Shown piece by piece: positions 18,735-60,005 of a stretch of 64,000 nt of DNA (its first letter is position 1; each line of letters begins with the position of its first letter). The DNA comes from Lepidostoma basale (Eukaryota; Arthropoda; Insecta; Trichoptera; Lepidostomatidae). The stretch covers positions 186,001 through 250,000 of the forward strand of contig JAHDVF020001334.1 of assembly GCA_022606425.2 (NCBI GenBank), written 5' to 3'. A program made the translations under genes and the position numbers. Below the pieces are notes generated by a model. It was not told the origin of the DNA. It ran no database searches and saw only the letters and a list, made by a program, of their open reading frames with translations.

Positions 18735-19145
18735 ACACTGTTTTAATATCAAACATTTTTAGTTTATTTTTTATAAAATCGTCGCGACAGCTGTTTCAGT
18801 AACCGATGTTACCATCGTCAGGTGTTACAATAAACTAAAGATAAATACAGAAAGATTTCATTTCTATAGTAAACATTAAAAAGTATAAACATTTACTTAA
18901 TTACTCAATTTACTTAATAATAACTGTTACTTAATTACTGTGTTTTTCCATCTTAATTGCTTATATTATTGTGTGTAGTTTCTTCCCCTATTAATAATCG
19001 TGTTTACTATATACATGAAATCTTTCTGTATTTATCTTTAGTTTATTGTAACACCTGACGATTGTAACATCGGTTACCGAAACAGTTGTCGCGACGATTT
19101 TATAATAAATCTCAATTTTTGATATTAAAACAGTGTTTTTAATTT
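18735..19145. repeat. F2 foldback: two hammerhead-like motifs in inverted orientation
   Basis: The arms (about 18735-18890 and 19010-19140) are reverse complements, with an AT-rich middle. Each arm carries a core: 18821-18786 on the minus strand (CUGACGA, stem II GUAAC/GUUAC, GAAACAGCUGUC) and 19055-19090 on the plus strand (CUGACGA, GUAAC/GUUAC, GAAACAGUUGUC). The flank AAAACAGTGTTTTTAATT is shared with other F2 and F7 copies. No ORF. Confidence 0.8.
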
Positions 19146-19375
19146 AATAGAGAATAATGTTAAAATATCAAAGTGTTTCCGTGAAAACAATGGATTACCT
19201 AACTTCATTTTATTCAATTCTTGTTATATACTAGTTTAACATCAATTTCGATTAACTAGTATGTACTGTTAACTCTTCTTCTCTTTTACATTTGTGGTAA
19301 CATATAATTGGCCTTATTCTATTGTTTCTGTGTGTTTTAATTACGTACTGTAATCGATGTTTGTTACCCCAAATA
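19146..19375. other. No recognisable feature
   Basis: AT-rich spacer between F2 and an RTE1 copy. Confidence 0.3.
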
Positions 19376-19895
19376 AATAAATAACTAACTAACTAACTAA
19401 CCATCACGCCGTCTCCCCGGAGGGGTAGGCAGAAAGAATGGAACGCTACACTGTTCTGTTCTGACATACTTATCTCGCTTCCTCTACATTTATACATCTT
19501 GTCATGCACGTCGATTTCTCCGACTCTTCACGTGACCGACATTCAATATTTGATTGATTTGATCGTGCCACGTTTTCCTCGGCCTTCCTCTATTTCTAGC
19601 TCTACCGTTTACATATATCTTCTTCACCATTCTGTCTTCACTCATTCTTTCCATGTGTCCAAACCATCTTAATGACCCTTTCCTTATTTTGTTCATAACA
19701 CTTTCATTCGCACCACATTCAATTCTTTTATTTGCATTTGTCACTCTATCATATACAGATTTGTCACAAATTCGTCTTAGAGATCTCATTTCTACTGCAT
19801 TTATTCTACTTTCATCCTTCTTTTGCCAGTTCCATGCTTCACTTCCATACATAAGGGTCGGCACAAGAACACCATTATGCACTGCCATCTTAGCT
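19376..19895 (-). mobile_element. RTE1 LINE 3' end, well preserved
   Basis: The minus-strand frame 19888-19502 reads LMYGSEAWNWQKKDESRINA, EMRSLRRICDKSVYDRV, KGSLRWFGHMERMSEDRM, then GRPRKTWHDQINQIL. The GTTAGTTAGTTAG tail is intact (TAACTAACTAAC on plus). The copy is 5'-truncated just upstream of the LMYGSEAW motif. Confidence 0.9.
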
Positions 19896-20439
19896 AAATA
19901 AAATAAATAAATAAATAAATAATAATAAGTCTTACACCATTACTCAAGAAGAAATAAATAAATATGTTTGATAGGTTATACTGCTAGAGGTTTAACGCAG
20001 TATTGGAGTGTAAGTTCTTTTATTAAAAACAATAATTGAAAAATGATTTCTATTTTTATATTTAACTTTACCAATTTTTCCACGTACTGTTAAAAGCCAA
20101 TTCTCGCCATCTTTCGGCATTACACCCCCTTGACTAAAGCTCGTGTTTTCTTAAGGTTCGTGTCCTCTCACCTATCTATAAGCCCTCGGCTGGAGATATA
20201 AAAATACGTTTAAGTTTTCTCGTCACTGACGGGCCTTATTCCCCTTGACGTAACTACTATATTTAGGGCTCGGCTATAACTAAGCCAGACATTTTTCGGT
20301 ACATTTCACGTGTTTCTTCCTCCATATTCCAGAGACGTACTGTCATGAGTATGTGTAGGGACGAGGCCATTTCGATTACTAACAATACTCTAATCGATAC
20401 TCTTATATAGGGAAAATACAGAGGAACGAAATACGGATA
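19896..20439. other. Low-copy intron with GC-richer island
   Basis: Positions 20080-20400 stand out as richer in GC and unmatched elsewhere in the window. No exon with paired splice sites was found. Confidence 0.35.
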
Positions 20440-20882
20440 TTAATATAAGCTTAGAAAATTGAAAAACTTTTTTTAATCCACTATTTAAACAAAAATATTA
20501 AAAAAAACACGACATGTTTCGGAGGATACCTACATCTTCAGGTGTAAAAATATAATAATAACTAAATAAAGAAAGACTAGTAAAAACGCATTGAAAATTT
20601 AATACAATAATTCAATTTAAAAATTAACCTGTGCTATTTGTTATAAGTAGGTACGAACAATTATTTTTTAACAGTAAGAAATAATTAATAATATTAAATA
20701 ATAATAATAATACATGATGATAAAATAAAAAAAGAATAAAAAATTGCAATATAGAAAAAAAAAATACATATGAAACGATATAATTTATTTAGAAATTAAT
20801 AAATTATTTATTTGCATTTGATTGGAAATGGGAGCTTGGGAGATTAAATATAGACAAAGTATTTAAGGAGAAAGGAGGAATC
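20440..20882 (-). mobile_element. Penelope-like element 3' end with hammerhead motif
   Basis: On the minus strand 20882-20807 encodes the conserved C-terminal tail PPFSLNTLSIFNLPSS. After about 270 bp comes a hammerhead-like core at 20541-20511: ACAC, CUGAAGA, stem II AGG/CCU, GAAACAUGUC, GUGU. The tail is shared with 59340-59990. It is truncated at 20882 against a Jockey fragment. Confidence 0.8.
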
Positions 20883-21310
20883 TAATTATTAATTATGTTT
20901 TCAATGAAAACATTAACAGAATTCCATAGTGTTAATGCTTTAGCGTTCAATACGGATAAATATTTTTGTGGCTCTATCCCAGGGCATTTTTTTGGTATGC
21001 TGGGGACGAACTCTCTGCAGCTTCGAAGAGGTGAGCATCTCATAACCCATTTCGTTAGATTAATCAGGAAATATTTAAAGAACTCGGCTATGCTGGAGGT
21101 CTTTTTGTTATTGATAGATATCTCAGACAGCGATAGCATAGATTGTTTTACTAACCGGCTGCCAGAACCAACCTGCCTCTGGAGACACCGATGGGAAGAG
21201 CAATGAGTCAGCTGAACGCGGTCTCATCAGAGATCAAAGTTTTTGATATTAGTGAAAGAACGTTCAGAATACAAATACACTTGAATTTCGAGAGTATCTT
21301 GTTTTATTAA
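20883..21310 (+). mobile_element. Jockey-like LINE C-terminal fragment and 3' UTR
   Basis: Encodes GMLGTNSLQLRRGEHLITHF, then decayed text matching the 58554-58186 copy (LPEPTCLWRHRWEEQ corresponds to nucleotides for NLPLVTPVGR-). Frameshifts prevent a full reading. The RT core is missing. Confidence 0.75.
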
Positions 21311-21500
21311 CATCGAATTAAAATAATTATAAATCTTTAGATATTATAAAATCTGTCAAAACTGATCATATTTGTAAACAATTTTATAATATTTTAAATA
21401 TGTATCTTTGTAATATCACTGAGGAAGGACCGGTCGTCCGAAAAATATCTGATATATATATTTTTTAAAGTTATTGTTGTATATACAAAGTATATAAAAA
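21311..21500 (+). repeat. F4 repeat with hammerhead-like motif
   Basis: Core at 21419-21449: upstream AUAUCA pairs with downstream UGAUAU (stem I, 6 bp). CUGAGGA, stem II GGAC/GUCC, then GAAA and the palindromic AAUAU-type stem III ending in C. It closely matches 37940-38110. Confidence 0.75.
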
Positions 21501-22135
21501 AGAAAAAGACAAATAAATAATATAATATATTTTTTTAATGTATAGAAATCAATAATAAGTAAGTTTATATTTTGATCATGCATATTATAAAATTGAATAT
21601 TTGTTAAATTAAATAAGATTAAATTTTTATTATAATATAATACAAGGCGATTTACATTTGTAAATCGCTGGGTAATTCCAAAAATATTTACTCGAAATTT
21701 CTATATTGATAAAATGTATATTTAAAATCGATACCTGCGGGTACCTGGGTACCTGCGTCGATACTCGAGACGGGACATCCTTTCGTCGTGTATTATTCCA
21801 GGCACATCACCCGTCACGAGAGCTTTTGTTATGTAGAGACGGACGCGGGGAAATTTACCGATTAAATGTCAATTTTGGAGCGTAAAACAAATTTGTTAAA
21901 AACCTGAGCGAAAATTTGAGATCCTTGGAGCATAGTTTTATAAAAACATATTTTACTCTCCATTATGATATTCTTACATGTCACTTTGTTGTCAAATCGT
22001 TACAATTTATGTTCTTAGGAGAATTTTATGATTCCATATTGAATATTTATTTTTAGAAATGTTTTTAGCTATTAGCTTGTAATGGTATTGGACATATGAA
22101 ATACAATCTAGTTTAATAACGCAAAACGATATGTG
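21501..22135. other. Low-copy intron, no feature
   Basis: AT-rich with a GC-richer patch at 21730-21860. No repeat match or exon seen. Confidence 0.3.
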
Positions 22136-22139
22136 AACG

Positions 22140-22755
22140 ATATTATAATATCCTTCGTTAAAAAAAGAAATGATGTCAGTGAAGAGATTGGAAAAATATG
22201 CTGTGGATATTCACAGCAAACATATGTTACTTTGGTTTCAATAAGCACCTCAAGTCGCGTTTATTGTCCAGAAAGACAAAGACCGCACTGTATAAAACGT
22301 TGATTAGACCAGTTCTAACATATGCCTCAGAAACTTGGACACTCACTAAACGTGATGAAATAAAGATGAACTGCTTCGAAAGGAATCTTCCTCCGTAGAA
22401 TCTTCGGACCCATTAAGGATGGTCAGACGTGGAGAAGGAGATACAACACAGAGCTCTACAATCTATACCAGAACGTCAGCGTGGTTAAGTTTTTAAAGAT
22501 TAACAGACTGCGCTGGCTAGGGCACTTGCATTATATCTGGAGCTCTCCAAAAGAATGTTGTTTGAAAATCAAGTAGGGCGTAGTAGCGTCGGTAGCCTAA
22601 GGCTGCGATGGTTGGATGGTACCGTGGCAGACTGTCAGGCTCTGGAGCAGCAAAACTGGGAGGTGGCGGCCAGAGACAGGACGGGATGGATACGTTTCTT
22701 GGAGGGGGCTAAGACCCACCAAGGGTTGTAGCGCCGGAGAAGAAGAAGAAGATTA
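22140..22755 (+). mobile_element. RTE5 LINE 3' end with (GAA)n tail
   Basis: Reads LSRKTKTALYKTLIRPVLTY and ASETWTLTKRDE, then after a frameshift VGRSSVGSLRLRWLDGTVAD and DRTGWIRFLEGAKTHQGL, ending at a stop followed by AGAAGAAGAAGAAG. These are RTE-type RT C-terminal landmarks. No RT core. Confidence 0.85.
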
Positions 22756-22829
22756 TTAAATAATGTAAAAACAATATTTAGAATATTGTAAATAAATTTA
22801 TGGCGTTTGGAATTCCATAATGACGAATT

Positions 22830-23025
22830 GTTTTATGAATTAAAAACACTGTTTTTTTTTCCAACTTTTGAGCTTACTTTTCTCGAAATGTTTATATCGT
22901 TGTTGTCGTATGTTGAGTTAATATCGCTTTCCCGATGATGAAGGTGTAAGCCTTAGAAACATGTTGAGAAAAATAAACTCAAAAGTGGAAACGACAGTGT
23001 TTTAATTCATAAAAAAATTACAATA
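22830..23025. repeat. F7 foldback with degenerate hammerhead-like motif
   Basis: Left arm ATGAATTAAAAACACTG ... ACTTTTGAGC; right arm CTCAAAAGTGGAAACGACAG, TGTTTTAATTCAT. Between them lies CGAUGAUGAAGG ... CCUUAGAAACAUGUUGAG, where stem II AAGG/CCUU and GAAAC are kept but C3-U4 are altered. Confidence 0.65.
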
Positions 23026-23035
23026 TTTTGAAAAT

Positions 23036-23330
23036 AATTTTATAATATTTTATGGGAAAACTAGGGGAAGAAGGATGCCTGGAAGAGCCCCCAAAATATG
23101 GAATAAGTCCACATCGTGCAATGTAGACACAAGGAATTAAAAATGTCGCCTTGATAAGGAGTAATCAAATTTATGCCATTTGATAAGGTCTAGCCAGACA
23201 AATCACGTTATTTCCAAAAATATTATACAATAAAACTTCTCTAAAATAGACGTTTTCATATTTAATATTTTTTATATTTTAAAATTATGTTTTCCGCATT
23301 TATTTTAATCGACATGTTTCTAAAGTTTTA
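23036..23330. repeat. F1 fragment in low-copy sequence
   Basis: ACAATAAAACTTCTCTAAAATAG at 23225-23250 and a TTTGATAAGG block nearby are F1-like. The rest is unrecognised. Confidence 0.45.
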
Positions 23331-23334
23331 TAAA

Positions 23335-23990
23335 TAACTAACTAACTAACCATCACGCCGTCTCTCCGAAGGGGTAGGCAGAAATAATGGACTGCCACAC
23401 TGATTTGATTTTCTTTCCTGACCTATTTCTCTCGATTTCTCAACATTCATACAGCGTGTCATGCACGCGCGTCGATTTCTCTGACTCCTCACGTGGCCGA
23501 CATTTAATATTAGATTTATTTGATCATGCCACGTTTTCCTCGGTCTTCCTCTATTTCAAGTACCATTAACATATACATTTTTTACCATTCTTTCCAAACC
23601 ATATGTCCAAACCATCTTAATGATACTTTCATTATTTTGTTCATAACACCATCATTCGCACCGCATTCACTTCTTATATTTTCATTTGACACCATATCAT
23701 ACACATAGTATCTCCACATTCGTCTAAGAGATCTCATTTCCACTGCATTAATTTTACTTTCAACCTTATTTTGCCAGTTTTCATTGATTTGTTCATAACA
23801 CCATCATTCGCACTGCATTCACTTCTTATATTTTCATTCGACACTCTATCATACACAGAGTATCCACACATTCGTCTAAGAGATCTCATTTCCACTGCAT
23901 TTATTCTACTTTCAACCTTATTTGGCCAGTTCCATGCTTCGCTTCCATACACATGGGTCGGTAGAATAACACAATTGTGCCATTTTAGCT
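23335..23990 (-). mobile_element. RTE1 LINE 3' end with internal tandem duplication
   Basis: The tail and terminus start at 23335 on the plus strand as TAACTAACTAACCATCACG. The segment for CSAND... to RINAVEMRSLRRM occurs twice in tandem (about 23635-23780 and 23790-23930), with the junction near TTTTCATTGATTTGTTC. Frames include MYGSEAWNWPNKVESRINAV. Confidence 0.85.
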
Positions 23991-24004
23991 TTTTTTGGTT
24001 TTAT

Positions 24005-24100
24005 ACCTTCATCTTTACATGATTCTTTGGGTGATGAAGGTATTAAATGTTCGAAGCATGCCGAGAAATATAAAAGCAGTATTTTAATTTAAAAAACTAT
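24005..24100 (+). repeat. F7-like motif fragment
   Basis: GGUGAUGAAGGU ... GUUCGAAGCAUGCCGAGAAA followed by AGCAGTATTTTAATTT, which parallels the F7 copy at 22920-23010. Confidence 0.45.
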
Positions 24101-24104
24101 ATTT

Positions 24105-24620
24105 CTATTGAAATAAACGAGCTTTCGGAATAACATATGCATTAGAACTATCACAAGTCAGTTTGCTGCAAATATATATACCGCAGTTTCTAAAACTTTC
24201 ATGCACAATGACTCTATGTTTGATGTTCTCAATTGACTGTACACAAGAAGCATTTGAAAATTTGAATATCACGGGAGAATCGTATAAGACTTGTACAGGA
24301 TGGAACAAATTCAAATGTCAGTTAGGTGAACGATCTTTTCAAATTGAAACAACATCTTCTTCCTTTGCTTCTTCTTCTGTCTATTGTGGCCATCCACTCC
24401 TGTTTCGAATCTGACCATAGTTTAGAGAGAAAATACAGAATATTTCTACACAACTAAAAACAGCAATAAATTTAACAAACTAAAATCTTTGGAAATCCTC
24501 AAGTTGGTAAAATTGGGAGAAAACATCAATAATTATCAGATTTCTCCATTTACTCCTTTCTCCTTAAATACCCTTTCTACTTTTAGTCTTTCGAGCTCCG
24601 ATTCCAAATAATATTTTCAA
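24105..24620 (+). mobile_element. Penelope-like element C-terminal remnant
   Basis: 24395-24615 corresponds to the tail KLKSLEILKLVKLGENI, then QISPFTPFSLNTLSTFSLSS, in shifting frames; compare 59339-59593. An upstream GERSFQ-type stretch may be a decayed GIY-YIG region. The 3' part continues past an inserted RTE3 to the hammerhead motif at 25211. Confidence 0.65.
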
Positions 24621-24654
24621 CGCAAATTAATCAATTATCTAGGCAAAAGATGTC

Positions 24655-24990
24655 TTTTCTAATTTTTCTAATTCTTCTTCTCCCTTGTTGTAGACCTATG
24701 CGGTCTGTTCTCCAGAGTGTCGCTTCTCCTACGAGGTAGAATCCCAGCTGTCCTTCCATATTTTAGGAGGTCTTCCACGAGGACGAGTCCCATGAAGCTG
24801 ATTATGTAGTGTAATATATGGGAGTCTGGTGGTGTCCATTCTTGGGACATGAACGTACCAGTCCCTCTCTTCGCTGTCTCCTCCATCTTATAATATCCTT
24901 AACCTCACATCTCTCTTTTTTATTCTGGCGTTTCTCACGTGATCTCACAGTGTCTTGCCTGCTATCGTCCCAAGTGAATATTTTCCAAAT
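24655..24990 (-). mobile_element. RTE3 LINE 3' end inserted in a Penelope-like element
   Basis: Minus strand: RGTGTFMSQEWTPPDS, SFMGLVLVEDLLKYGRTAG, RRRSDTLENRPHRSTT, tail (GAA)n. It matches 17880-18410. It splits the Penelope-like coding tail from its 3' hammerhead. Confidence 0.75.
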
Positions 24991-25009
24991 TACAGTTTAT
25001 ATCATCACT

Positions 25010-25300
25010 TATAATTATTATGTATTATTTCTGTCAAATATTACTTATTAGGTTAAATTAATAAAAAGTTTTTAATTCTTACTGTTTAAAATGAATAACT
25101 GTTAACAAATATATTAGTACTTACAGCAATTAGTCCAGTTTATTTTTTCAAATTCTTCTTAAAAGTTTTAATAAGCCTTTTTTGTTTAGTTTTTTGTTAT
25201 ATATTTGCACCTGAAGATGGAGGTCACCTCCGAAACATGTCATGATATTTAATATTTTAGTAGATAATAAAATACGTAATTTTTCAATTTCCAAAAATTT
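25010..25300 (+). mobile_element. Penelope-like element 3' region with hammerhead motif
   Basis: The core at 25211-25241 reads CUGAAGA, stem II GGAGG UCA CCUCC (5 bp, perfect), GAAACAUGUC. Upstream CAC and downstream AUG allow only a weakened stem I. The flank TAATTTTTCAATTTCCAA is shared with 20450 and 59985. Confidence 0.75.
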
Positions 25301-25520: not shown

Positions 25521-25522
25521 TC

Positions 25523-26625: not shown

Positions 26626-26629
26626 TTTT

Positions 26630-27187: not shown

Positions 27188-27315
27188 TTTCCGCGACAGC
27201 TGTTTCATCAGGTGTAACAATCAACTGATGATGCTAACATTGGTTAGCGAAATAGCTATCGCGTCAATTTCGTGATAAATTAAATCAATTGTGATATTCT
27301 ATAACAGTGTTTTAA
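27188..27315 (+). repeat. F2 repeat with near-canonical hammerhead core
   Basis: Core at 27225-27260: CUGAUGA, stem II GCUAAC AUUG GUUAGC (6 bp, perfect), GAAA, UAGCUA, UC. Compared with the other F2 copies, stem III has changed on both sides and keeps its palindrome. An inverted partner lacking stem II lies at 27191-27218. Confidence 0.78.
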
Positions 27316-27691
27316 TTAAAGAGATAAAAAATATACATTAAAAAAATATATATTTTTAAAAATTTTTTCTTCTATATTCGCCATACTTTGTGTTGTAGAT
27401 GCTTTATTTCTCTTTTTATTTTTATATACTTTGTATATAAGACACATACATTTAACAAATTAAAATTAAATAGACATGTTTCGGACAAACCAGTTCTTCT
27501 TCTGGGATACATATTTAAACTATTATTAAATTATTTACATGATCTGACAGATGTTATAAAGATTTTATAAAATCTGTCAGATCACCTAAACAATTTTATA
27601 ATATTTTAAATATGTATCTTTATAATATGTATCAATGAAGAATAACTGGTTGTCCAAAACATGTCTATGTTATTTAAATTTTTTTAATGTA

Positions 27692-29008
27692 CGAGGTCTG
27701 TTCAAAAAGTATCACGAATTTTATATTTTTTCAAAAAGTATTTATTTATTCATGAATATCTATTTTGTCCCCTTCAAAGTAATTCCCCTCGGATATAATA
27801 CATTTATGCCAACGTTTTTTCCAATCCTCGAAGCACTTAAAAAAATCATTTTTGTGATCTTGTTCAGCTCCTCCTTCGATGCCGTCTTTATCTCCTCAAT
27901 CGTGGCGTAGCGTCGTCCTTTCATGGGCCTCTTCAGTTTTGGAAACAGGAAAAAGTCACAGGGGGCCAGGTCTGGGGAATACGGTGGCTGCGGCACCATT
28001 ACTGTGTTGTTTTTGGCCAAATATTCGCGCACAAGCAACGATGTGTGAGCAGGGGCGTTATCATGGTGCAAAAGCCAGTTTTTGTTCTTCCACAAATCCG
28101 GGCGTTTCTGGCGGATTGCTTCGCGCAAATTGCGCATAACTTGCAGGTAATATTCCTTATTGACCGTACTACCCTGTGGCAAGAACTCATGCACCACGCC
28201 CCTGCAATCGAAGAAAACTGTGAGCAAAACCTTCACGTTCGACCGAACTTGGCGCGCTTTTTTTGGTCTTGGCTCATGCGGCAGCTTCCATTGGGATGAT
28301 TGAGCTTTGGTTTCCACGTCATAACCATAAACCCATGATTCGTCACCAGTTATGACCCTCTGGAGCACATTTGGGTCGTCACGGACCGAGTCCAACATCT
28401 CCTGAGCAATGTTAACGCGATGCTGTTTTGGTCGAAATTGAGCAATTTTGGCACGAATTTCGCGGCGACCCGACTCATGCCCAAATCATTGGTTAAAATC
28501 GAATGGCACGAGCCAATCGATATGTTTAGGTCCTCAGCAACTTCTCTAACGGTGATTCGACGATTGGCTAATACTATTTTCTTCACTTTATCAATGTTTT
28601 CGTCTGTTGTTGACGTGCTCGGGCGTCCGGCACGCTCTTCGTCGTTCATATCTTCTCGGCCCTCTGAGAACATTTTGTACCACCGATAAACGTTGCTTTG
28701 GTCCAAGGTAGCTTCACCATATGCCACAGTCAACATTCGAAATGCGTCCGCGCACTTGATTTTGTTTTTCAAACAAAATTTGATACAGATTCTTTGATCC
28801 ATTTTTTGGAATAGGCAAAAATCGAAGACGAGCCAAAACACATCCAAGCAAAACAGCTTTCAAAAATTAACTAAACATTCAAAATGGCCGACCTTGTCAG
28901 CATAAGTAAGGGACATGAGTACCAACATAACGCTACAAAAAAATCAAAAATCAAATATACGTAGCCAGCGGAAATTCAAAATTCGCGATACTTTTTGAAC
29001 AGACCTCG
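27692..29008 (-). mobile_element. Mariner transposon B, both ends present (1317 bp)
   Basis: Ends begin CGAGGTCTGTTCAAAAAGTA on both sides (31-bp inverted repeats, one mismatch), flanked by TA at 27690-27691 and 29009-29010. The subfamily differs from mariners A and C. A half-copy of the same family lies at 61162-61908. Confidence 0.95.
27775..28802 (-). pseudogene. Mariner transposase pseudogene (element B)
   Basis: Start ATG at 28802 (MDQRICIKFCLKNK). The N-terminal DNA-binding half runs to about 28430 (SNVYRWYKMFSEGRED, VREVAEDLNISIGSCHSIL). A one-base loss in an A run near 28430 shifts the frame. It resumes as MLDSVRDDPNVLQRVITGDE. The D,D34D motif is visible: TGDESW, HHDNAPAHTS, SPDLAPCDFFLF. 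A codon is missing in the VVHEFLPQG segment, and the last ~30 residues are shifted by an indel in ITKMIFLS. Otherwise intact, so a recent insertion. Such transposases insert at TA. Confidence 0.93.
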
Positions 29009-35984: not shown

Positions 35985-37583
35985 AAATATCTGACTGAAA
36001 ATAAATTTAAATTCACCAGCATCGATGCCACAGAAATCATAAAAACGATCAATTCTTTAAAAAATAAATGCGCTTCTGGACCAGACGGACTCAACAAAAA
36101 GACATTGAAATACATCAAAGAAGAAGTAGCTACCCCTCTTGCACACATCATTAATTGCAGTATCACCTCCAATACCTTTCCGGATCACTGTAAAATTGCA
36201 AACATAATTCCAATCCATAAATGCAAAGAAAAAAACGACCCTTCCAACTACAGGCCAATCTCTCTCCTAAATGTAATAAGTAAAATTATCGAAAAAATCA
36301 TCAAAAAACAGCTGGTAAATTTTATAGAAAAAAATGAATTGTTATCGATTAACCAGTATGGATTCCGACAAAATAGAGGAACGCAAGACGCCATAGTAAA
36401 AATTACTGAATTAATTGCAAAAAATACAGATAACAAAAAATGCTGTATATCAATTTTCCTTGACTTGGCAAAGGCTTTCGATACAGTTTCCCACAAAATC
36501 CTCATAAAAAAACTTTCAGACATTGGAATCAGTGATGGACCCCTCGAATGGTTCAGAAGCTATTTATCTGGACGAGTTCAATCCGTAAAACTTGGAATGC
36601 TCCTTAGCGATACTCAACCAGTTACCTTCGGTGTGCCTCAAGGTAGCACACTCGGCCCATTGCTATTCCTCATTTACATCGATCCGCTGTGCAGACTTGT
36701 AACTGGAGGGGAAACGACCGTATTTGCAGACGACACGGTACTCCAGTTTGAGGCGAACACCTGGGAAGAAGCATTTGGGAAGGCAAACAAAGGACTCAAA
36801 CTTGTGAAATATTGGCTGGACAATAATCTTTTGACTTTAAATACAAACAAAACGACTTATTTAACTTCAACTATTGACAATAGACGACAACCATTAGGAA
36901 AAAATAATCTCATTATACATACATGTAATAATAGTAACTGCAATTGCCTGCCGCTGACTAAAGTTACTTCTACCAAATACTTAGGGATACATTTAGACGA
37001 TCACCTTAGATGGACAGACCAAATTGAAGCTGTCTCCAAGAGAATTAGAAGCCTTATTTACACTTTTAAAAATATTAGAAATATATTACCGTTAACCACA
37101 CTTAAAACAGTATATTATGCTTTCGTCCAATCCATCCTAAACTACGGTTTAATAGGATGGGGAGGAACTACAATAACTACACTAAACCCAGTCATTGTAG
37201 CCCAAAAGACAATAATTAGAGTCATTAACAAAAAACCATATCGAGTCCCCTCAGACCAACTTTACGATGAATTTCAAGTACCGGACATAATACAACTATA
37301 TATAAGAAATTTAGTCGTGCACTACCACAAGGACACCGACAGACACTTAAAAGCACAACAAACGTACAACACACGCAACAAACATAACCATTTTGTACCA
37401 AAAACTAAAACTTCTTATGCGCAAAGACATTTCTACTATCTTGGACCCAAACTCTATAACATAATTAACAAAACTATAAACGACCCACAAAAAATGACAA
37501 TGCACAATTACAAAAAACATGTAACTACGGAGACATTAAAAAAAGGACGGCTTGAATGTAGTTTAATTTTTAAAAATAAGTAA
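35985..37583 (+). CDS. Reverse transcriptase ORF2 (C-terminal 533 codons, open)
   Basis: Copies element RNA into DNA at a nicked target. Open from just after a stop at 35982 to TAA 37581-37583. It begins FKFTSIDATEIIKTINSLKN, CASGPDGL, the usual start of the RT fingers. Taking the TTG at 36105 as residue 1: NYRPISLLN at 48-56, FLDLAKAFDTVSH with catalytic Asp at 120 and 126, GVPQGSTLGPLLF at 176-188, and the FADD box at 207-210. Then NNLLTLNTNKT and TKYLGIHLDD (thumb), and a CUB-unrelated C-terminal tail ending SLIFKNK. All RT catalytic residues are present. The domain order fits CR1/L2/Jockey-group elements; the exact clade is not decided. No promoter or start codon is kept, so it is a truncated but undamaged copy. 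Confidence 0.92.
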   Translation, partial: KYLTENKFKFTSIDATEIIKTINSLKNKCASGPDGLNKKTLKYIKEEVATPLAHIINCSITSNTFPDHCKIANIIPIHKCKEKNDPSNYRPISLLNVISKIIEKIIKKQLVNFIEKNELLSINQYGFRQNRGTQDAIVKITELIAKNTDNKKCCISIFLDLAKAFDTVSHKILIKKLSDIGISDGPLEWFRSYLSGRVQSVKLGMLLSDTQPVTFGVPQGSTLGPLLFLIYIDPLCRLVTGGETTVFADDTVLQFEANTWEEAFGKANKGLKLVKYWLDNNLLTLNTNKTTYLTSTIDNRRQPLGKNNLIIHTCNNSNCNCLPLTKVTSTKYLGIHLDDHLRWTDQIEAVSKRIRSLIYTFKNIRNILPLTTLKTVYYAFVQSILNYGLIGWGGTTITTLNPVIVAQKTIIRVINKKPYRVPSDQLYDEFQVPDIIQLYIRNLVVHYHKDTDRHLKAQQTYNTRNKHNHFVPKTKTSYAQRHFYYLGPKLYNIINKTINDPQKMTMHNYKKHVTTETLKKGRLECSLIFKNK

Positions 37584-37939: not shown

Positions 37940-38110
37940 TATATAGTACCATTTGTCAAAACTGATCATATTTGTAAACAATTTTATAATATTTTAAATT
38001 ACTTTATAATATCACTGAGGAAGGACCGGGTTGGCCGAAACATGTCTGATATTTAATAATTTTTTTTTTAATCGTTGTTGTATACAAAGTATATAAAAAA
38101 GAAAATATAA
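37940..38110 (+). repeat. F4 repeat with hammerhead-like motif
   Basis: Core at 38015-38046: AUAUCA upstream and UGAUAU downstream form a 6-bp stem I; CUGAGGA, a stem II with one extra base, GAAACAUGUC. The right flank ATACAAAGTATATAAAAAAG matches the copy at 21311-21500. Confidence 0.75.
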
Positions 38111-42612: not shown

Positions 42613-42870
42613 ACCCGCAAGTCGACCTTCGTGGCAGAGTGGTAAGAGCTCTGACTTCCATACCGAAGGTCCCGGGTTCGATCCCCGGCGATGGCAGTGT
42701 AATTGTCACACTGTCTTTGGTCTGGTGTAGAATTCTCGTGACAATAAAATGGCGATAGATTGGCTACCTATCACATGTCATAAGAATCAATATAATTGCT
42801 AAAAAAATATATTGTATACAGTAACTGGGTTCAAATGACCTGTTGTACACAAGGAAAATAAAATAATTAC
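42613..42870 (+). mobile_element. SINE1 copy, best preserved
   Basis: GACCTTCGTGGCAGAGTGG (A box), GGGTTCGATCCCCGG (B box), then TGTCACACTGTCTTTGGTCT and AATAAAATGGCGATAGATTG, ending in an A-rich stretch after TTGTATACAGTAACTGGG. Confidence 0.9.
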
Positions 42871-47859: not shown

Positions 47860-48055
47860 AACTCTCACACGATGAATGAATGTTGACGAATCAATCGATA
47901 GACGACCTTCGTTCGTTTTGACTGACACCCCTAAGGACCCGGATTCAATTTCATTACAGTGTTATTGTCACACTGTCTATGGTCTGGTGCAGAAAACACG
48001 TGAAAACAAAATGGCGATAGATGTCATAAGAATCAGTATGATAGCTATACCCTTT
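47860..48055 (+). mobile_element. SINE1 copy, decayed
   Basis: ACCTTCGTTCG (A-box region lost), GACCCGGATTCAATTTC (degenerate B box), TTGTCACACTGTCTATGGTC and AACAAAATGGCGATAGATGT. A scrap of RTE1 (CACGATGAATGAATGTTGA) precedes it. Confidence 0.7.
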
Positions 48056-51397: not shown

Positions 51398-51590
51398 TGA
51401 TGACCTTCCTGGCCGGGTGGTAAGTGCTTTGACTGCCACACCGAAGGTCCCAGATTCGATTCCCGGTGATAGCAGTGTGATTGTCACACTGTCATTGGCT
51501 AGGTGTAGAATTTACGTGATTATAAAATGGCGATAGGTCAGCTACTTATCACATGACACGAGAATCAATATGATAGCTAATAATGAAAAT
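51398..51590 (+). mobile_element. SINE1 copy
   Basis: GACCTTCCTGGCCGGGTGG (A box), AGATTCGATTCCCGG (B box), TTGTCACACTGTCATTGGCT, CTTATCACATGACACGAGAA. Confidence 0.85.
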
Positions 51591-51944: not shown

Positions 51945-51947
51945 ACG

Positions 51948-53024: not shown

Positions 53025-53115
53025 AAATTGGTTTATAGACAGCTGTTTCGTCAACCTATGTTGACATCATCAGGTGTTACAATAATATATCAAATATCAA
53101 ATTTTCGTGATTTTT
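53025..53115 (-). repeat. F2 repeat with canonical hammerhead core
   Basis: Minus-strand core 53073-53038: CUGAUGA, stem II GUCAAC AUAG GUUGAC (6 bp, perfect), GAAACAGCUGUC. Upstream UUGUAACAC and downstream UAUAAACC give no convincing stem I. Confidence 0.8.
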
Positions 53116-53212: not shown

Positions 53213-53400
53213 GTTTATGTATCACAATTGCATTTTTATTTTTCGCGACAGCTGTTTCGTCAACTTATGTTGACATCATCAAGTATTACAGGAATATTTT
53301 ATTTTGTAACACCTGATGATGTCAACATAGGTTGACGAAACAGATGTCGCGAAAAATAAAAATGCAATTGTGATACATAAAACAAAGATTTTTAATTTAA
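53213..53400. repeat. F2 foldback: near-perfect inverted pair of hammerhead-like motifs
   Basis: The left arm about 53213-53290 and the right arm about 53307-53392 are reverse complements around a short loop. Right core 53313-53348 (+): CUGAUGA, GUCAAC/GUUGAC, GAAACAGAUGUC. Left core 53282-53247 (-): UUGAUGA, GUCAAC/GUUGAC, GAAACAGCUGUC. AAAAATGCAATTGTGATACA is shared by both arms. Confidence 0.85.
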
Positions 53401-53920
53401 CAGTTTATTAGATTTATATCAATTAACGATATCAACAAAAAATGTCATGGAATTTTTCCATCATTTACGAAATTAGAAAGTAAAACCCACTTGTTAATAT
53501 ATCATTTAATACACGCTTATTTCTCGTCACCATTTATAAAACACACCCTTATGACATATGATACTTATAATCTATTATGTATTCTGCGAAGACATAAAAA
53601 CGTAGCTCAAACACTTCAGAAATGATATTTTATATGGCAGGGGCGAAGGATATTTATTTATAGAGGAAGAATTAAATATTTGATATCCGTGCTTAATGGC
53701 CCGAGATAATTTATGGTTGGGGGTGCATTTGAACGCTTGAAAGAGCCCGTGAAATATGTCTCAGGTGGAAATGTAAAGAAAAACAACCCCGCGGACACCC
53801 TTTCCATTTTCACCCTTGGACATTTGCATATGAAGTATATAACCTAACGTTCTGACCTTTTGTGGAGAGCTTATGGTATTTTCTTGTATAAACAGTGTGT
53901 TTAAAATAATTTGCCTTTTA
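53401..53920. other. Low-copy sequence with GC-richer island
   Basis: Positions 53640-53830 are GC-richer and unmatched. No exon identified. Confidence 0.35.
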
Positions 53921-53924
53921 GAAG

Positions 53925-54220
53925 CCGCATTTTATGATGTTTTTATCAGTACCTGTTATTATGTGCAATATTATTATAAATTGTATTTTATATTATTTGT
54001 TTTAGATTTATTTTGTGGACGTTGGATGATCGAAATGTGCACGGGAGATGCCTATTGGTGGCAATGAGGTTCGCAACTTATCAAACCGCGTCTCCCGCGG
54101 GGGCGAAAATAGAGAATGATGGAGTGCCGCATCGGTTAAAGTGTGGCTGTCCAATCTTTCTGCCTACTCCTTCGGGGAGATGGTGTGAAGGTTAGTAAGT
54201 TAGTTAGTAAGTTAGTTTGT
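53925..54220 (+). mobile_element. Non-autonomous retroposon NR1, 3' half
   Basis: TTAGATTTATTTTGTGGACG TTGGATGATCG, TGCACGGGAGATGCCTATTG, AAACCGCGTCTCCCGCGGGG, TTCTGCCTACTCCTTCGGGG, GTTAGTAAGTTAGTTAG tail. Confidence 0.8.
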
Positions 54221-54364
54221 ATTTTAAAATATGGTTTCAAAACTTATTGTAATATTATAATATATTATACATGCATAGATTATCATGGTTAGATAAAAAT
54301 GGATCCTGGAACAAGATGTAAATTAAAATAAATGTTGATAATACTTAGAAGCTGTATAACTTCT

Positions 54365-54510
54365 ACGGTGGAAGGATGACCTGAACAGACATGTCGGAAT
54401 AACTTGGATGCAATCTGCACAAGACAGAATGACATGGAAGCGAATGGAGGAGGCCTTTGTCCAGAAGTGGACGGGAATAGGCTGAGGATGAAGAAGAAGA
54501 AGAATAATGT
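54365..54510 (+). mobile_element. RTE-like LINE C-terminal fragment, (GAA)n tail
   Basis: One frame reads WKDDLNRHVGITWMQSAQDR and MTWKRMEEAFVQKWTGIG, a well-known end of insect RTE-type proteins. It ends GAAGAAGAAGAAG. Confidence 0.8.
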
Positions 54511-54519
54511 CTACAAAAT

Positions 54520-54750
54520 GACTCAAGCCTTCGATGCATGCTAGTCTGGGTAGATTAAAGTGGGTTGGACATTGGACACTGGGTAGATTAAGGTGGGTTG
54601 AGAAAATGCCGTCGTTTCGCCTTGAAGAAGCTGCACAACTACTGCAAATGAGACTTGAAAGCCATAGCAGGCGACAGAAGTGCTTGGAGGCGAGGTCTGA
54701 TGAAGGTCAAGGCTCGATATGAGCTGTAGAGCCCGGAGAAGAAGAATAAT
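54520..54750 (+). mobile_element. RTE8 LINE C-terminal fragment, (GAA)n tail
   Basis: GRLRWVEKMPSF in one frame and GDRSAWRRGLMKVKARYEL with stop in another, followed by GAGAAGAAGAATAA. A duplicated GGGTAGATTAARGTGGGTTG lies at 54547-54602. Confidence 0.7.
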
Positions 54751-54934
54751 AAATATCAGTTTTAAAATACGCATATCTAGAAAGTAAGTGTACTGAAGCT
54801 CTCACGGCCGGATGGATTTTATTTTCGACATGTTGGCTACACTCCAGTGTGGCCTGACCTTTCCCCTCCGCAACGAGATCGGTTCGAGGTCAGTACGTTG
54901 AGAAATGTCGAGGCGACAACACGTTTAGTGAAAA

Positions 54935-55520
54935 ATGTCAATTCAATCTCCCGCCAAGTGCGAAATACGCGGCGCCGGGCAAGAGTTTTTGAGGCGCTGC
55001 AAACTCCATAGAGATGAATTTCTCCGCTCCATCGTTACTGGAGATGAAACTTGGGTTGCACACTACACGCCTGAAATCAGAAGGCAGTCTCAACAGTGGC
55101 GTCACACCTCTTCACCCTCCGCCAAAAAGTTCAAAACCACAATTTCAGCCAAGAAAATCATGGCATCCGTGTTTTGGGACTGTCAAGGCATAATTTTAAT
55201 TGAATATATGCCTCAAGGAGAGACCATCAACTCTTCAAGATACTGTGAGACCCTAAAAAGAGGAGAGGCATGCTGACAAAGAGAGTCTGCCTGCTGCACG
55301 ACAATGCCAGAAGGAACTGCTCGCCTCGTTGAAATGTGATGTCCTGAACCCTCTCGCGCGTTCCCCTGACCTAGCACCTTTAGATTACTATCTCTTTACC
55401 TCCCTGAACCTGTACATGGGTGAAAAAAGGTTTTCAACCAACGAGGAGGTAAAGGAGGAGGTGGAGAAGAGGACGAAGGGGTTGGCGGGAAACTACTTCG
55501 AGGAAGCATCAAAAAGTTGA
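54935..55520 (+). pseudogene. Mariner transposase pseudogene (element C)
   Basis: The catalytic half is readable: LHRDEFLRSIVTGDETWVAH (first Asp), SAKKIMASVFWDCQGIILIE, YMPQGETINSSRYCETL. After a frameshift near 55260 comes RVCLLHDNAR (second Asp). Then a deletion removes the usual 'RPHTA' stretch. It resumes as ARSPDLAPLDYYLFTSLNLY (third Asp) and GEKRFSTNEEVKEEVE. The DNA-binding N-terminus is nearly gone. Clearly dead. Confidence 0.85.
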
Positions 55521-55634
55521 AACCCCGCTTCACTACCTGCATTGAGAGGAATAGCGACTATGTCGAAAAATAGCTTACATACTCGTATGTAGTTACGGGA
55601 ACCACGTTATTTTTATGTTTAAATAAAAAAAATG

Positions 55635-56050
55635 TAACTCACTAACTAACTAACCAGCACGCCGTCTCCCCGAAGGGGTAGGCAGAAAGAATGGACTGCC
55701 ACACCTTTCTTTCCTGACATATTTCTCTCGCTTTCTCAACATTCATACATCGTGTCATGCACGCGCGTCGATTTCTCTGACTCCTCACATGGCCGACATT
55801 CAATATTTGATTTATTTGATCGTGCCACGTTTTCCTCGGTCTTCCTCTATTTCTGGTTCCATTTACATCATTAACATATTTTTTTTTTACCATTCTTTCT
55901 TCATTCATTCTTTCCATATGTCCAAACCATCTTAATGATCCTTTCATTATTTTGTTCATGACACCATCATTCGCACCGCATTCACTTCTTATATTTTCAT
56001 TTGACACTCTATCATACACAGAGTATCCACACATTCGTCTAAGAGATCAA
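55635..56050 (-). mobile_element. RTE1 LINE 3' end nested in mariner C
   Basis: The frame 56034-55642 is open for 130 codons: MCGYSVYDRVSNENIRSECG, MKGSLRWFGHMERMNEERM, RNRGRPRKTWHDQINQILNV, RRACMTRCMNVEKAREICQE. Tail TAACTAACTAACC on plus. The flanks AAAAAAATGTAAC and AAAAAAATTAACC look like a target duplication. It is the most intact RTE1 coding end here. Confidence 0.92.
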
Positions 56051-56102
56051 AAAAATTAACCTAAAAAAATTCAGTACACTTACTTTCTGGAGATGCCTCG
56101 TA

Positions 56103-56460
56103 TCTTAGCGTAGTTTGATAATGCAAGCAAAGATGTGTCGATTGAATTTTTCATTTTCTTTTATAGAAATTTTATTAAAAAGAATAGAGTTGGTGTCTTA
56201 AGCATTACAAGTCAAGCGGAAGATTCGATAACGATTTATTCGAGTTACTTTTAGTGTAGATGGTACTAACACGGATACCCATTGTTCAATGAATTGTAAC
56301 GTCCGCTTCGGAAGTTGAATATGTAGCGAGAATTTACTTAATCCGACTCGATTGAGAGATTTATCGATTTAGCAGCTCACCCCAGAGGCGTGGGGACTAT
56401 TAGATCGGTGTGAATTAAGCACATTCCTTAAAAAAAACATTAAATATTTACAAATATTAC
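56103..56460. other. Low-copy sequence, no feature
   Basis: No repeat match or exon seen. Confidence 0.3.
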
Positions 56461-56461
56461 T

Positions 56462-56858
56462 CCAGGCGACTTCTAAAACAGTGCGCTAGGAGGCGGTAGC
56501 CTCTTCGCATTGTGTTAATAAAGTGGTTTGCTAAATGCTAAAACAATCATTCTTCATAGATGGCGTTAGTGGGTGGATTGTATAGATTAATCTTAAAAAA
56601 ATAATTAGTACAATCAAATCTACATAGATGGCTAACTGGAGCTGACACGTGAAGATAGGTATGGATTTGGAGTATATATACAACTTCCAAAAATGTATCA
56701 TGCATGATCATAATAACAATGGTGGAATGGGGAATGTTGTAATTACATAAAGCGTGCGCTTAACCCAACCAATGACAGGTCATAAGTCCTGTAAACACCT
56801 TGATCATCCATATTCAGTTTCCAGTTTGTTTCTTCGTCTCTATTGAGATACAATTAAA
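56462..56858 (-). repeat. Interspersed repeat R5, long copy
   Basis: Minus strand from TTGTATCTCAATAGAGACGA through ACATTCCCCATTCCACC, ACTAACGCCATCTATGAAGA, to CGCCTCCTAGCGCACTG. Together with 3185-3600 it shows the family is about 400 bp. Confidence 0.78.
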
Positions 56859-56919
56859 AAATTAACATTAAATATTCTTCATGGAAGTCGCCTTAGTGAA
56901 TATTTACTGTATATTTGTT

Positions 56920-57400
56920 CTAGACCCGACCCTTATGTATGGAAGTGAAGCTTGAAGTTGCCAGAAAAAGGATGAAAGTAGGATAAATGCCGTAGAAATG
57001 AGTTCACTGAAAAGAATGTGCGTAAAAACTATGTATGATAGAATATCTAATGATGAAGTAAGAAAGGAATGTAAGACGGATGAATGTGTGATAAATAAAA
57101 TTAAGAAAGGGTCACTAATATTGTTTGGGCTTATGGAACGAATGGATGAGGGAAGAATGGTTAAAAATATATATACAAATAGTGTGAATGGGAAAAAAAA
57201 TCGAGGAAGGCCAAGGAGGACATGACATGACCAAATTAATTAATTACTGAAAGGCGGCCATGTTCGAAGTTTCAAAGTCACGATGTGTGAATTTAAAAGA
57301 TGCGCGAGAATTATATCAGGATAGAACAATGTGGCGATTAATCCTCTCTGCCTACCCCTCCGAGGAAACGGCGTGATGGTTAATTAGTTTGTTAGTTATT
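56920..57400 (+). mobile_element. RTE1 LINE 3' end, plus strand
   Basis: CGACCCTTATGTATGGAAGT, frame MSSLKRMCVKTMYDRISNDE, KKGSLILFGLMERMDEGRM, KKNRGRPRRT; terminus GAAACGGCGTGATGGTTAAT TAGTTTG. Confidence 0.88.
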
Positions 57401-57424
57401 TGAATTTTTTGTATTATTTGTTTA

Positions 57425-57595
57425 ATAATACCATTAACTTGAAAACGTTAAAATTTTACATACATGCCCAAAAAACTAGATAAATTAGAAATCTTAGAAA
57501 TAAATAGGCTTAAATACAACACCCTGGACCAAGTAGTCCTTAATGACCAATTACTGTTTGTTAACTCCCCTTTGTTATATCCAATATAAACAAAT
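57425..57595 (+). mobile_element. Penelope-like element C-terminal fragment (second family)
   Basis: The frame reads MPKKLDKLEILEINRLKYN, TLDQVVLNDQLLFVNSPLL with stop, matching the tail pattern of Penelope-like ORFs. A shorter scrap is at 38700-38772. No hammerhead seen downstream. Confidence 0.6.
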
Positions 57596-58020
57596 AAAAA
57601 ATATTCCTGGAATTGATTACCGCCGAAAAATTGATTTGTTTGATTCCAGGCCTTAGCAGCTATATGGATGGTGAAAACCGAATAAGGCGATGCCAACCTT
57701 ATGGACCAAGAACAATAACATATTATATTTACATTCAGTAATAATAAAAACAAAAGTATTACTTTTTTAAACATCATATATAAATATGACAGCTATAATA
57801 AAATTTAAAATGAATTGTATTAAATATGAATCTTCTTGAATACCTGTAATACCAATAATTAAATTCAGTAAAATTTACATAAATATTTGAAGATTATTTT
57901 CGTATAGAATCACGTTTACCACTCCTGATCTGTATGTATATAAATAATTCGGTTTGTAGATATAAATAGTTCGGTTGTTCTCCCAATAATATAGTGTTAA
58001 ATCAAGTGAAATGTTTAGTC
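57596..58020. other. Low-copy sequence, no feature
   Basis: AT-rich, nothing recognised. Confidence 0.3.
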
Positions 58021-58021
58021 C

Positions 58022-58965
58022 TCCCGAGTTTGGCTATCAAATCAAATCAATCAAATCAAATCAAATCAGTTTATTTCATCAACAGACATTACAAAATTAA
58101 TTTTTAAGGCATCTATTGAGAACAGGTAAAATAATATATATTGTGTAAAGTATACTACCAGAAACGCATGAGAGATGGTTTAACATTAGGAAGACAGGAT
58201 ATTCTCCAGAATTAAGAGTATTTGCCTTCTGAACGTACTTTCACTAATATGAAAGACGTCAATCTCCGAACAGTTCAAAAGATTATTTGTTCTTCCCACA
58301 GGTGTCACCAGAGGCAGGTTGGTTTTGGCGGCCGGTAGGTAAAACAATCTATGCTGTCGCTGTCGGAGATATCTATCAGGGACAAATAGCCGAACACCCT
58401 CCGGCACGGCTGAGTTCTCGAAAAATCCCCTGAGTAATCTAAAGAAATGGTTTATGAGATGTCCATCTCTTCGAAGCTGCAGAGAGTTGGTACCTAGCAT
58501 TCCCAAAAGAAATGCTGTGGAATAGAGCCGTGGATAGCTACCATTCTCCCTCATGTAGATATACCTCAGAATATTTTTCTAAACCCTCTTCAGCATAACG
58601 GAATATCTCGCCTTTGAGGACTCCATATCACAGAACCACTTTCGAGTCTGCTCCAAACCAATGTGTTGTATAGGACTCTGAGCACATGAGGATCCCTGAA
58701 AACTCTGCCAGTCCGGACGATGAAGCCCAATATCCTCAGTGCAGTGTGACAAATCCTCTCAATATGTGCACGAAAAGTCAGCCTATCCGCTATCACTTAA
58801 GAGTAGGCGTCCCTGTCCCTGACAGCTCCTCAATGTTTTTGTTAACCAGTTCAGTCCCTTATATTGTGAAGCCAGAAGATTCGCCTCCTGGCAACACCTC
58901 GTCGACCCTGTACTAAGTCCTCAATAATCAGGCGCAGTAAAATAAGTGGCGTATTACTCTCTGCT
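58022..58965 (-). mobile_element. Jockey-like LINE 3' portion with (GATTT)n tail
   Basis: Minus strand from about 58960: EVLPGGESSGFTI-type thumb residues, then DRLTFRAHIERICHTALRIL, VFRDPHVLRVLYNTLVWSRL, LLGMLGTNSLQLRRDGHLIN, RLFYLPAAKTNLPLVTPVGR, then a 3' UTR and a TTTGATTTGATTTGATTGAT tail. Frameshifts occur near 58590. The RT palm is missing. Confidence 0.86.
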
Positions 58966-59095
58966 TCAAATTTCTTCTTAGGACTTATACTGTCAGCTGT
59001 CCTTTCATACTCGTATATTTGGTGGTCGTGCTTGAGGTCTGCATTCTCTAAGTAAATTGTCTCTTGCTGTAATCACGTTCCTTGAATCTCACATC
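58966..59095. other. Spacer, no feature
   Basis: Short low-copy sequence. Confidence 0.25.
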
Positions 59096-59099
59096 ATGG

Positions 59100-60005
59100 C
59101 ATGTTCATTCCAAAAACTTATTATAACAAAATTAAAAAATCACTTCCTCGTCACAACAAACCAGTATTATATACAAAAAAACAACCTTGGCCAACTCCTT
59201 TTAAATTCCAACCAAAAAAACAGACATTTGGCAAAAAAGTGGTGTATGTAAAATTACATGTAAAGATTGTGATGCTTTTTACATAGGCCAAACAGAACGA
59301 ACTTTTAAAACACGTATCTACGAACACTTTCACCAAACATGCTGTTTTTTTCTGAGATGGCTAACCATTGTATTGAATTTGACCATAGTTTCGATAAAAA
59401 TGACACAAAATTTCTACACACAGTTAACATTAGCAATAAATTAAACCAACTTAAAATTTTAAAAATCCTCAGGTCGGTGAAATTGGGTGAAAACATAATT
59501 AATAATCAGATTCCTCCTTTTACTCCCTTCTCCTTAAATACTTTGTCTACATTTAATCTCCCAAGCTCCCATTCCCAATCAAATGCAAATTAATCATGTA
59601 TATAAATAATCATTATATAAATTATGTCTTTTCAAATGTATGTTTTTTCTAAATTACAATTTTTATTTATTTATTTTTTATTATTTTTTAAAATTTTATT
59701 ATCATTTATTATTATTATTATTTTTTTATACATATAATCATCTTGTATTATTATTATTTAATTTTATAAATTTGTTATTACTGTTAAAAAATAATAGTTA
59801 GTACCTACTTATAACAAATGGCACAGGTTAATTTTTAAATTTGAATTATTGTATCAAATTTTAAATGCGTTTTTTATTAGTCTTTAGTTTAGTTTTTACT
59901 ATATTTATACACCTGGAGATGGAGGTATCCTCCGAAACATGTCGTGTTTTTTAATATTTTTGATCAAATAGTGGATCAAACAAAATTTTACAATTTCCAA
60001 GTATA
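59100..60005 (+). mobile_element. Penelope-like element 3' part: GIY-YIG end plus hammerhead
   Basis: The best copy in the window: coding remnants (59247-59593), a ~320-bp AT-rich 3' region, a hammerhead-like core at 59913-59943, and the tail ATAGTGGATCAAACAAAATT with TACAATTTCCAAG shared with 20440 and 25258. The RT domain is missing. Confidence 0.82.
59247..59593 (+). pseudogene. Penelope-like GIY-YIG endonuclease domain, frameshifted
   Basis: Penelope-like elements carry a C-terminal GIY-YIG nuclease that nicks target DNA. Here CKITCKDCDAFYIGQTERTF KTRIYEHFHQTC shows the paired Cys, the FYIGQTERTFKTR core (YIG and the catalytic Arg) and the EH motif. A frameshift near 59343 leads to MANHCIEFDHSFDKNDTKFL, NQLKILKILRSVKLGENIIN and the end SLNTLSTFNLPSSHSQSNAN. 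The first 'GIY' half is not clear. Non-functional because of the frameshift and missing RT. Confidence 0.85.

Follow-up and report, generated by a model that had tools for sequence, protein, structure and literature searches.

The hammerhead-like motifs dispersed over a 64,000-nucleotide (nt) stretch of the Lepidostoma basale genome (contig JAHDVF020001334.1, positions 186,001 to 250,000; hereafter the window) are minimal type I hammerhead folds in the pseudo-long terminal repeats (pLTRs) of several families of Penelope-like retrotransposons (PLEs), and as such are of a known kind. The fold is real and covarying; self-cleavage is putative and does not seem to precede insertion, and some families retain the fold while the catalytic core changes. 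Minimal type I hammerheads of PLEs were reportedly described by Cervera and de la Pena in 2014 and Lunse et al. in 2017. They have also been reviewed (PMC7761336, PMC6155905; these and the other published accounts cited below are drawn on in part).

By searching the source assembly (769 Mb in 1572 contigs), with each pattern reversed as its control, we found 15,868 exact matches to the CAGCUG-type pattern CTGANGA..GAAACANNTGTC and 14,008 to the CAUG-type pattern CTGANGA..GAAACATGTC, versus 0 for either pattern reversed. Family names (A1-A5, F3-F8 and P) were assigned in this analysis. Cores with substitutions gave 6,539 exact matches for CUGUCGA with ACCGGU (family P), 5,257 for UUGAUAA with ACAUGU (F7) and 1,240 for CCGAUGA with ACAUGU (F8), again versus 0 reversed; the patterns overlap slightly, with 7 of the 100 listed F8 matches having a normal core. 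Within the window, all ten cores listed by a preliminary description made from the sequence alone proved to be present, in position and strand. Searched with a strict descriptor (CTGANGA, one base, stem II of 4 bp or more, GAAA, 4-6 nt and TH), the window gives 6 matches, compared with 0.01 on average and never more than 1 in 200 dinucleotide shuffles. We added six cores to the ten, marked as such below, and saw more decayed remnants near 18525, 32998 and 62465 and at 27482(-) and 32375(-). The Rfam hammerhead families have no match in the window, neither at the gathering threshold nor at E <= 10, and none at E <= 10 on 13 small loci, where the matches are mainly to microRNA models on inverted hairpins. 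The motifs and associated features of the window are as follows.

304..334 (+): F7-type core UUGAAAA, stem II GCC/GGC (added)
12170..12200 (-): F7 core UUGAUAA (C3U with G8A), stem II GCCC/GGGC, ACAUGU; head-to-head with 12379 (added)
12379..12409 (+): F7 core UUGAUAA, stem II GCC/GGC, ACAUGU (added)
18704..18720: left copy of the target-site duplication, 17 bp, TAACTTCATTTTATTCA, flanking a head-to-head insertion
18786..18821 (-): A2 hammerhead-type core, stem II GGTAAC/GTTACT, stem III ACAGCUGU; the pair's short arm
19055..19090 (+): A2 hammerhead-type core, stem III ACAGUUGU; paired with 18786..18821 as the long arm
19200..19216: right copy, 17 bp, of the target-site duplication of the 18786/19055 pair
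20511..20541 (-): F3 core, stem II GTAGG/CCTCC (one mismatch), ACAUGU, stem I ACAC/GUGU
21419..21449 (+): F4 core, stem II GGAC/GUCC, stem I AUAUCA/UGAUAU, decayed stem III
22932..22965 (+): F8-type core CCGAUGA (U4 to C), partly decayed (added)
25211..25241 (+): F3 core, stem II GGAGG/CCUCC, ACAUGU
27225..27260 (+): A5 core, stem II GCUAAC/GUUAGC, stem III AUAGCUAU, both sides changed
38015..38046 (+): F4 core, partly decayed stem II, ACAUGU, stem I AUAUCA/UGAUAU
53038..53073 (-): A1 core, stem II GUCAAC/GUUGAC, ACAGCUGU; the core directly precedes the end of the family sequence
53247..53282 (-): A1 core, C3 to U; absent from the preliminary description and the closer head-to-head partner of 53313 (added)
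53313..53348 (+): A1 core, stem III ACAGAUGU, one mismatch
57441..57586 (+): decayed GIY-YIG end of the P-family frame, 82-85% identity
59172..59473 (+): two pieces of a Penelope GIY-YIG remnant, respectively 44 and 48% identical to the 758-residue frame described below; 440 bp upstream of 59913
59913..59943 (+): F3 core CUGGAGA (A6 to G), stem II GGAGG/CCUCC, ACAUGU, stem I ACAC/GUGU
60611..60643 (+): P core CUGUCGA (A6 to U), partly decayed stem II, ACCGGU; a head-to-head junction lies before it (added)

Pairing in stem II is kept despite sequence change, as had been proposed. The subfamilies of the A superfamily differ mainly in this stem (GUCAAC/GUUGAC in A1, GGUAAC/GUUACC in A2, GCCAAC/GUUGGC in A3 and GCUAAC/GUUAGC in A5), and among 57 distinct 36-nt CAGCUG-type cores, out of 87 copies, 92.1% of cells in the whole structure and 88% of those in stem II are paired, with two-sided changes in three of the six stem II pairs. 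Compensatory cells over the whole structure, which count sequences and not events, number 42, as compared to 15.1 (standard deviation (sd) 3.8) after shuffling and 1-7 in slid controls, with 0 of 500 shuffles reaching 42. The test covers the A superfamily only, and two of its five measures show no clear excess over the shuffles: pairs with a two-sided change (5 versus 3.0 shuffled, 28 of 500 reaching that number) and further pair types (12 versus 11.4, 219 of 500). Stem III is a very short, family-specific palindrome (ACAGCUGU, ACAUGU or ACCGGU, with AUAGCUAU at 27225), and the earlier claim that it changes on both sides holds as a comparison between families, since within a family it is mostly fixed by the collecting patterns. 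When single consensus sequences of A1 and A2 were folded, a rod-like hairpin was favoured in which the CUG of the core pairs with the CAG of stem III; as its two strands hardly vary, covariation is unable to tell this hairpin and the hammerhead apart.

Stem I differs among families in much the way first remarked, that is, clear in F4 and F3 and unclear in the family labelled F2, as judged by pairing counts. Proximal pairing of at least 4 bp is present in 31 of 36 P copies and 9 of 19 F4 copies, and in F3 at least 3 bp pair in 7 of 13 copies and at least 4 bp in 5 of 13. The proximal stem of the CAGCUG superfamily (n=94) is broken: positions 1, 3 and 6 pair in 84, 81 and 88% of copies and positions 2, 4 and 5 in 13, 31 and 6%, leaving no contiguous stem. 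A distal stem I is less strongly supported in the A superfamily, where a copy's own downstream strand pairs better than permuted ones (mean duplex energy -5.72 for 86 copies versus -4.95, sd 0.19, with downstream strands permuted; 0 of 2000 permutations reach the observed value).

The canonical core, CUGANGA ... GAAA followed by UH, is present in A, F3 and F4. In P (A6U), F7 (C3U and G8A) and F8 (U4C) it is substituted, and we file these three only as core-changed relatives of the PLE minimal type I hammerheads. Each substitution prevails among the 100 matches listed for its family: position 6 in P is U in 97, C in 2 and A in 1; position 3 in F7 is U in 96 and C in 0, with A8 in 92; and position 4 in F8 is C in 92, U in 7 and A in 1. 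An extra base, usually U or A, lies between CUGANGA and stem II in listed matches of all these families. Substituted cores of this kind are probably weak catalysts. By its sequence the double change in F7 would turn the C3-G8 pair into U3-A8 with the pair retained, and C3G/G8C double mutants recover some activity (PMC11167929). Three F7 matches at C1:1464007, 1464276 and 1464545 (-) lie on one strand at an exact spacing of 269 bp, as a small tandem array in a retrozyme-like arrangement.

A Penelope source, suggested in the preliminary description, is borne out by GIY-YIG frames upstream of the motif in P, F3, F6 and A1, and in the window as well. Genome matches to GIY-YIG led to an open frame of 758 amino acids (aa) in L069 with both RVT_1 and GIY-YIG; 1,341 proteins match this frame at E <= 1e-10 among 7,995 scored, and GIY-YIG is precomputed in 7 of the 120 matching proteins listed. 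At 20 loci anchored on GIY-YIG, the motif found downstream is of P in 5 and of F3 in 4, and L074 has an F3 motif downstream by a laxer pattern. No motif was seen downstream at the remaining loci, and the frames at two of the 20 are similar to those of bacterial UvrC. Open frames of more than 560 aa that resemble bacterial UvrC, by a reading of their sequence, occur in L072 (C102) and L073 (C729), on what may be symbiont contigs or transferred DNA. The F3 motif follows the GIY-YIG match by ~370-410 bp in the F3 loci, compared with 440 bp in the window (59172-59473, then 59913), and L057 carries two outward-pointing GIY-YIG arms, each with the same F6 motif behind it. In A1, 356 conserved bp precede the motif; they start directly after the end of a GIY-YIG frame in C740 (E 1e-13), where an intact A1 motif lies downstream; C855 has a weak match to the frame end (E 0.012) and a decayed A1 motif, and no GIY-YIG frame was found upstream of A1 in C739. 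Frames with reverse transcriptase (RT) plus GIY-YIG are thereby linked to the motif in P, F3, F6 and A1, and such linkage is not established for A2, A3, A5, F4, F7 and F8. Family P looks young because it has two open 758-aa frames and its inverted arms in L069-L071 are mostly 97-100% alike, with one ungapped piece down to 93%. Also in the window, a 532-aa reverse transcriptase frame with RVT_1, in which GIY-YIG was not found, occupies 35985-37583(+) and ends ~430 bp before the F4 motif at 38015.

The arrangement of neighbouring copies is predominantly inverted. Among 300 listed matches there are 47 neighbours within 1.5 kb, of which 37 are head-to-head, 1 is tail-to-tail and 9 are on the same strand. 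P copies end 3' mostly at two sites, about +60 and +107 after the cleavage position, and in 19 of 20 P pairs one arm has a long 3' end and the other a short one (13/13 in a first set and 6/7 in a further one), for which the chance at even odds and independence is about 2 in 100,000. The first set consists of 8 of the 11 listed head-to-head pairs, namely those less than 100 bp apart, and 5 GIY-YIG-fetched loci, and the further seven are L010 (L011 being the same locus), L063, L140, L141, L144, L145 and L146; L064 and L105 are one locus, counted once, and L001, which coincides with the window, is excluded from the tallies. Flanks of P pairs share 10-17 bp in 10 of 12 tested, with 8 bp in L135 and 6 in L139, whereas mixed flanks share a mean of 5.4 bp and a maximum of 9 in 132 combinations; L069, classified for its arms, was kept out of this duplication test for its microsatellite flank. 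The Penelope-like hallmark of head-to-head pLTRs with a tail on one arm and a target-site duplication is therefore seen in P, and partly in the A superfamily. We did not meet a near-strict rule of one long and one short arm in a large sample, nor a junction coinciding with the presumed RNA start, in the literature searched, which did not extend to the two primary papers of 2014 and 2017 named above.

Inverted pairs of this kind could instead be produced by self-priming on an antisense template, as proposed for Adineta PLEs (PMC3846280), and not by extension of both target strands. Some junctions are indeed palindromic, such as GGTCTAGACC in L132. However, the outer ends are unequal in all P pairs but one, and 7 of 8 short P pairs have a filler of 4-31 nt between the arms, in places copied from them (the eighth, L138, has one longer arm). 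Changes common to both arms number 0 in 7 of 8 pairs and 1 in L139, with most pairs too young to inform. Taken together, we regard self-priming as unlikely. As to the filler itself, it was noted at the L137, L139 and L142 junctions, with repeated CTGTC units in L137 and L142, as if arm-copied.

The ends of inserted copies bear on whether the fold cleaves before insertion. P has a 5' edge at -6 (ACCAGT), where identity among 28 arms is 85-100% from -6 to -1, 57% at -7 and 42% at -8, and A3 (n=26) and A5 (n=10) copies have theirs at about -15. Longer copies carry a TATA box 28-32 nt above the edge (TATAAA at -34 in P, and boxes at -45 in A2 and -47 in A3; L106, L118). For an unbiased mapping of 5' ends, copies were collected by their downstream part only: 19 of A3 (of 20 fetched from 41 listed matches, with L167 left out for wrong orientation), 20 of A1 (of 40 listed matches) and 30 of P, the last by exact pattern from the first 33 listed rows after three rows in L133 and L134 were left out. 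The A3 ends fall at -15 to -12 in 11 copies, at -24 in 1, at -7 in 1, further up in 2 and inside the motif in 4, with 0 at the cleavage base. Those of A1 lie further up in 8, at -19 to -10 in 6, at -5 in 1 and inside in 4, with 0 at the cleavage base and 1 (L188) two bases beyond it. In P, 14 are at -6 to -3, 7 further up (among them L196, with an apparent internal deletion), 8 inside and 1 at the cleavage base. Because no more than 1 of the 69 copies begins at the predicted cleavage position, and this sole case (L146+) is ambiguous through microhomology, cleaved RNA is not the usual insertion template, and uncut RNA appears to be the source of new copies.

These counts weigh directly on the view that the motifs are active ribozymes that cleave themselves as monomers or dimers and in this way process the transposition RNA, its cleaved form being the source of insertions. 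Intact CUGANGA, GAAA and UH in A, F3 and F4, together with the covarying stem II of A, are what such ribozymes would have, and dimer cleavage of PLE hammerheads of this sort is reported, to go by its title, in Lunse et al. 2017. Against it stand the near absence of copies starting at the cleavage position and the amplification of P, F7 and F8 despite their substituted cores, and we consider this view improbable. In work on an Anolis PLE, hammerhead mutants left in vitro insertion unchanged, and the hammerhead cleaved only when protein was added, with no RNA ends found at the site (PMC11167929).

Non-autonomous retrozymes, in which short tandem hammerhead repeats spread as circular RNA, had also been raised at the outset, and there are many short frame-less copies here, with insects among the invertebrates reported to carry retrozymes (PMC7229834). 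The alternative did not hold up and is very improbable: tandem repeats of about 170-400 bp are not the arrangement found, with the same strand shared by just 9 of the 47 close neighbours and by one F7 triple at 269 bp, and frames of PLEs are linked to A1, F3, F6 and P. Foldback DNA transposons, similar to miniature inverted-repeat transposable elements and having the motif in their arms by chance, would account for inverted head-to-head arms within one duplication, but given the unequal outer ends and junction filler of the P arms and the joining of the same 3' ends to RT/GIY-YIG frames we give them next to no credence.

The explanation that we consider likely as a whole is that these are pLTR hammerhead folds of PLEs, 5'-terminal in the RNA, copied from uncleaved RNA and inserted by extension of two strands. 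Transcription would start upstream of the core, by ~6 nt in P and ~15 nt in A3, with the 5' edge of copies marking the start, and the motif probably forms the RNA 5' end; the fold would then be the 5'-terminal domain of the element RNA, with the very 5' end serving as one strand of stem I. The element protein may have two internal sites for beginning reverse transcription, about 60 and 107 nt downstream, and whenever it begins close to the 5' end of the RNA, synthesis would run to that end and yield short copies. Both strands of the cut target would be extended, each start site serving one strand, and the resulting complementary DNA ends joined head-to-head. This fits the Anolis PLE work, where both strands are cut and extended and two internal start sites are used (PMC11167929). 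If the inserted copies derive from uncleaved RNA, the fold would be retained for some purpose besides trimming of the template, possibly protein binding, placing reverse transcription, translation start or occasional protein-assisted cleavage. We further suggest, as a tentative idea that may well prove wrong, that the hammerhead is selected not as a cleaver but as a 5'-terminal structural RNA domain marking the 5' end for a protein that copies two strands and joins them head-to-head, in which case the substituted-core families would be natural catalytic-loss variants amplified by thousands.

Several observations weigh against the two-strand explanation or parts of it. The transcription start is read from copy edges and TATA spacing, and 16 of the 28 P arms behind the -6 edge come from pairs picked for closeness, a choice from which the other sample, of 30 arms, is free. 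A1 has no single sharp 5' edge, and F3 and F4 copies mostly extend further upstream with no step seen. G is frequent at -7 in short P copies, which may reflect a cap or else junction repair. A minority of RNAs may be cleaved, or cleavage may come after reverse transcription. As for the arms, the P pair L141 has two short ones, and the 12 distinct A-superfamily pairs comprise 8 long/short, 4 short/short and 0 long/long, a tally that leaves out window pairs 26619/27225 (weak partner) and 53038/53313 (closer partner between) and L054 (other family). Clear duplication in the A superfamily is limited to two pairs, with 17 bp at 18786/19055 in the window and 13 bp in L038, and the Anolis in vitro work saw no start-site difference between strands (PMC11167929).

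The window holds other repeats. A tRNA-like sequence (29.5 bits) at 42625-42696 overlaps a dispersed repeat and is a candidate tRNA-derived short interspersed nuclear element, repeated at 1302-1465, 42643-42806, 47957-48022 and 51421-51584. Mariner-type transposase frames lie at 27760-28859(-), 61170-61916(+) and 5880-6785(+), with pieces of the first two 97-100% alike.

The association of hammerheads with PLEs is already known, and copies of it number tens of thousands here. Of most interest is that intact-core and substituted-core families, with thousands of copies each, make a natural comparison within one genome, where the ends of inserted copies record which RNA ends were copied. With both core classes and this record at hand, the need of cleavage for transposition is therefore answerable by end counts together with a cleavage assay. 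In addition, the near-strict pairing of long and short arms limits models of insertion by the Penelope enzyme.

When compared with the PLE minimal type I hammerheads of the reviews (PMC7761336, PMC6155905), the motifs agree in core, stem II, a nearly absent helix III, pLTR position and thousands of dispersed copies; unlike those the review descriptions cover, families with A6U, C3U plus G8A, and U4C are also numerous here, and the CAGCUG superfamily has no contiguous proximal stem I. Metazoan retrozymes likewise have a type I hammerhead within short non-coding repeats, but are tandem and circularising, whereas the motifs here are single or head-to-head (PMC7229834). With the Penelope of Adineta vaga they share head-to-head inverted pLTRs, an optional tail on one of them, target-site duplications, and a TATA box and initiator (Inr)-like sequence in the pLTR; in the portion of that account used here the hammerhead is unmentioned, and inverted pairs are ascribed to self-priming (PMC3846280). 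The Poseidon PLE of Anolis similarly has an AUG at the start of stem II and a motif upstream of two reverse-transcription start sites, although the AUG at stem II in P opens an 11-codon frame only, and in the genome pairs here each strand has its own start site, in contrast to the lack of strand difference in vitro (PMC11167929). The Poseidon 'tail' between the two reverse-transcription starts matches the tail on one arm here (PMC11167929).

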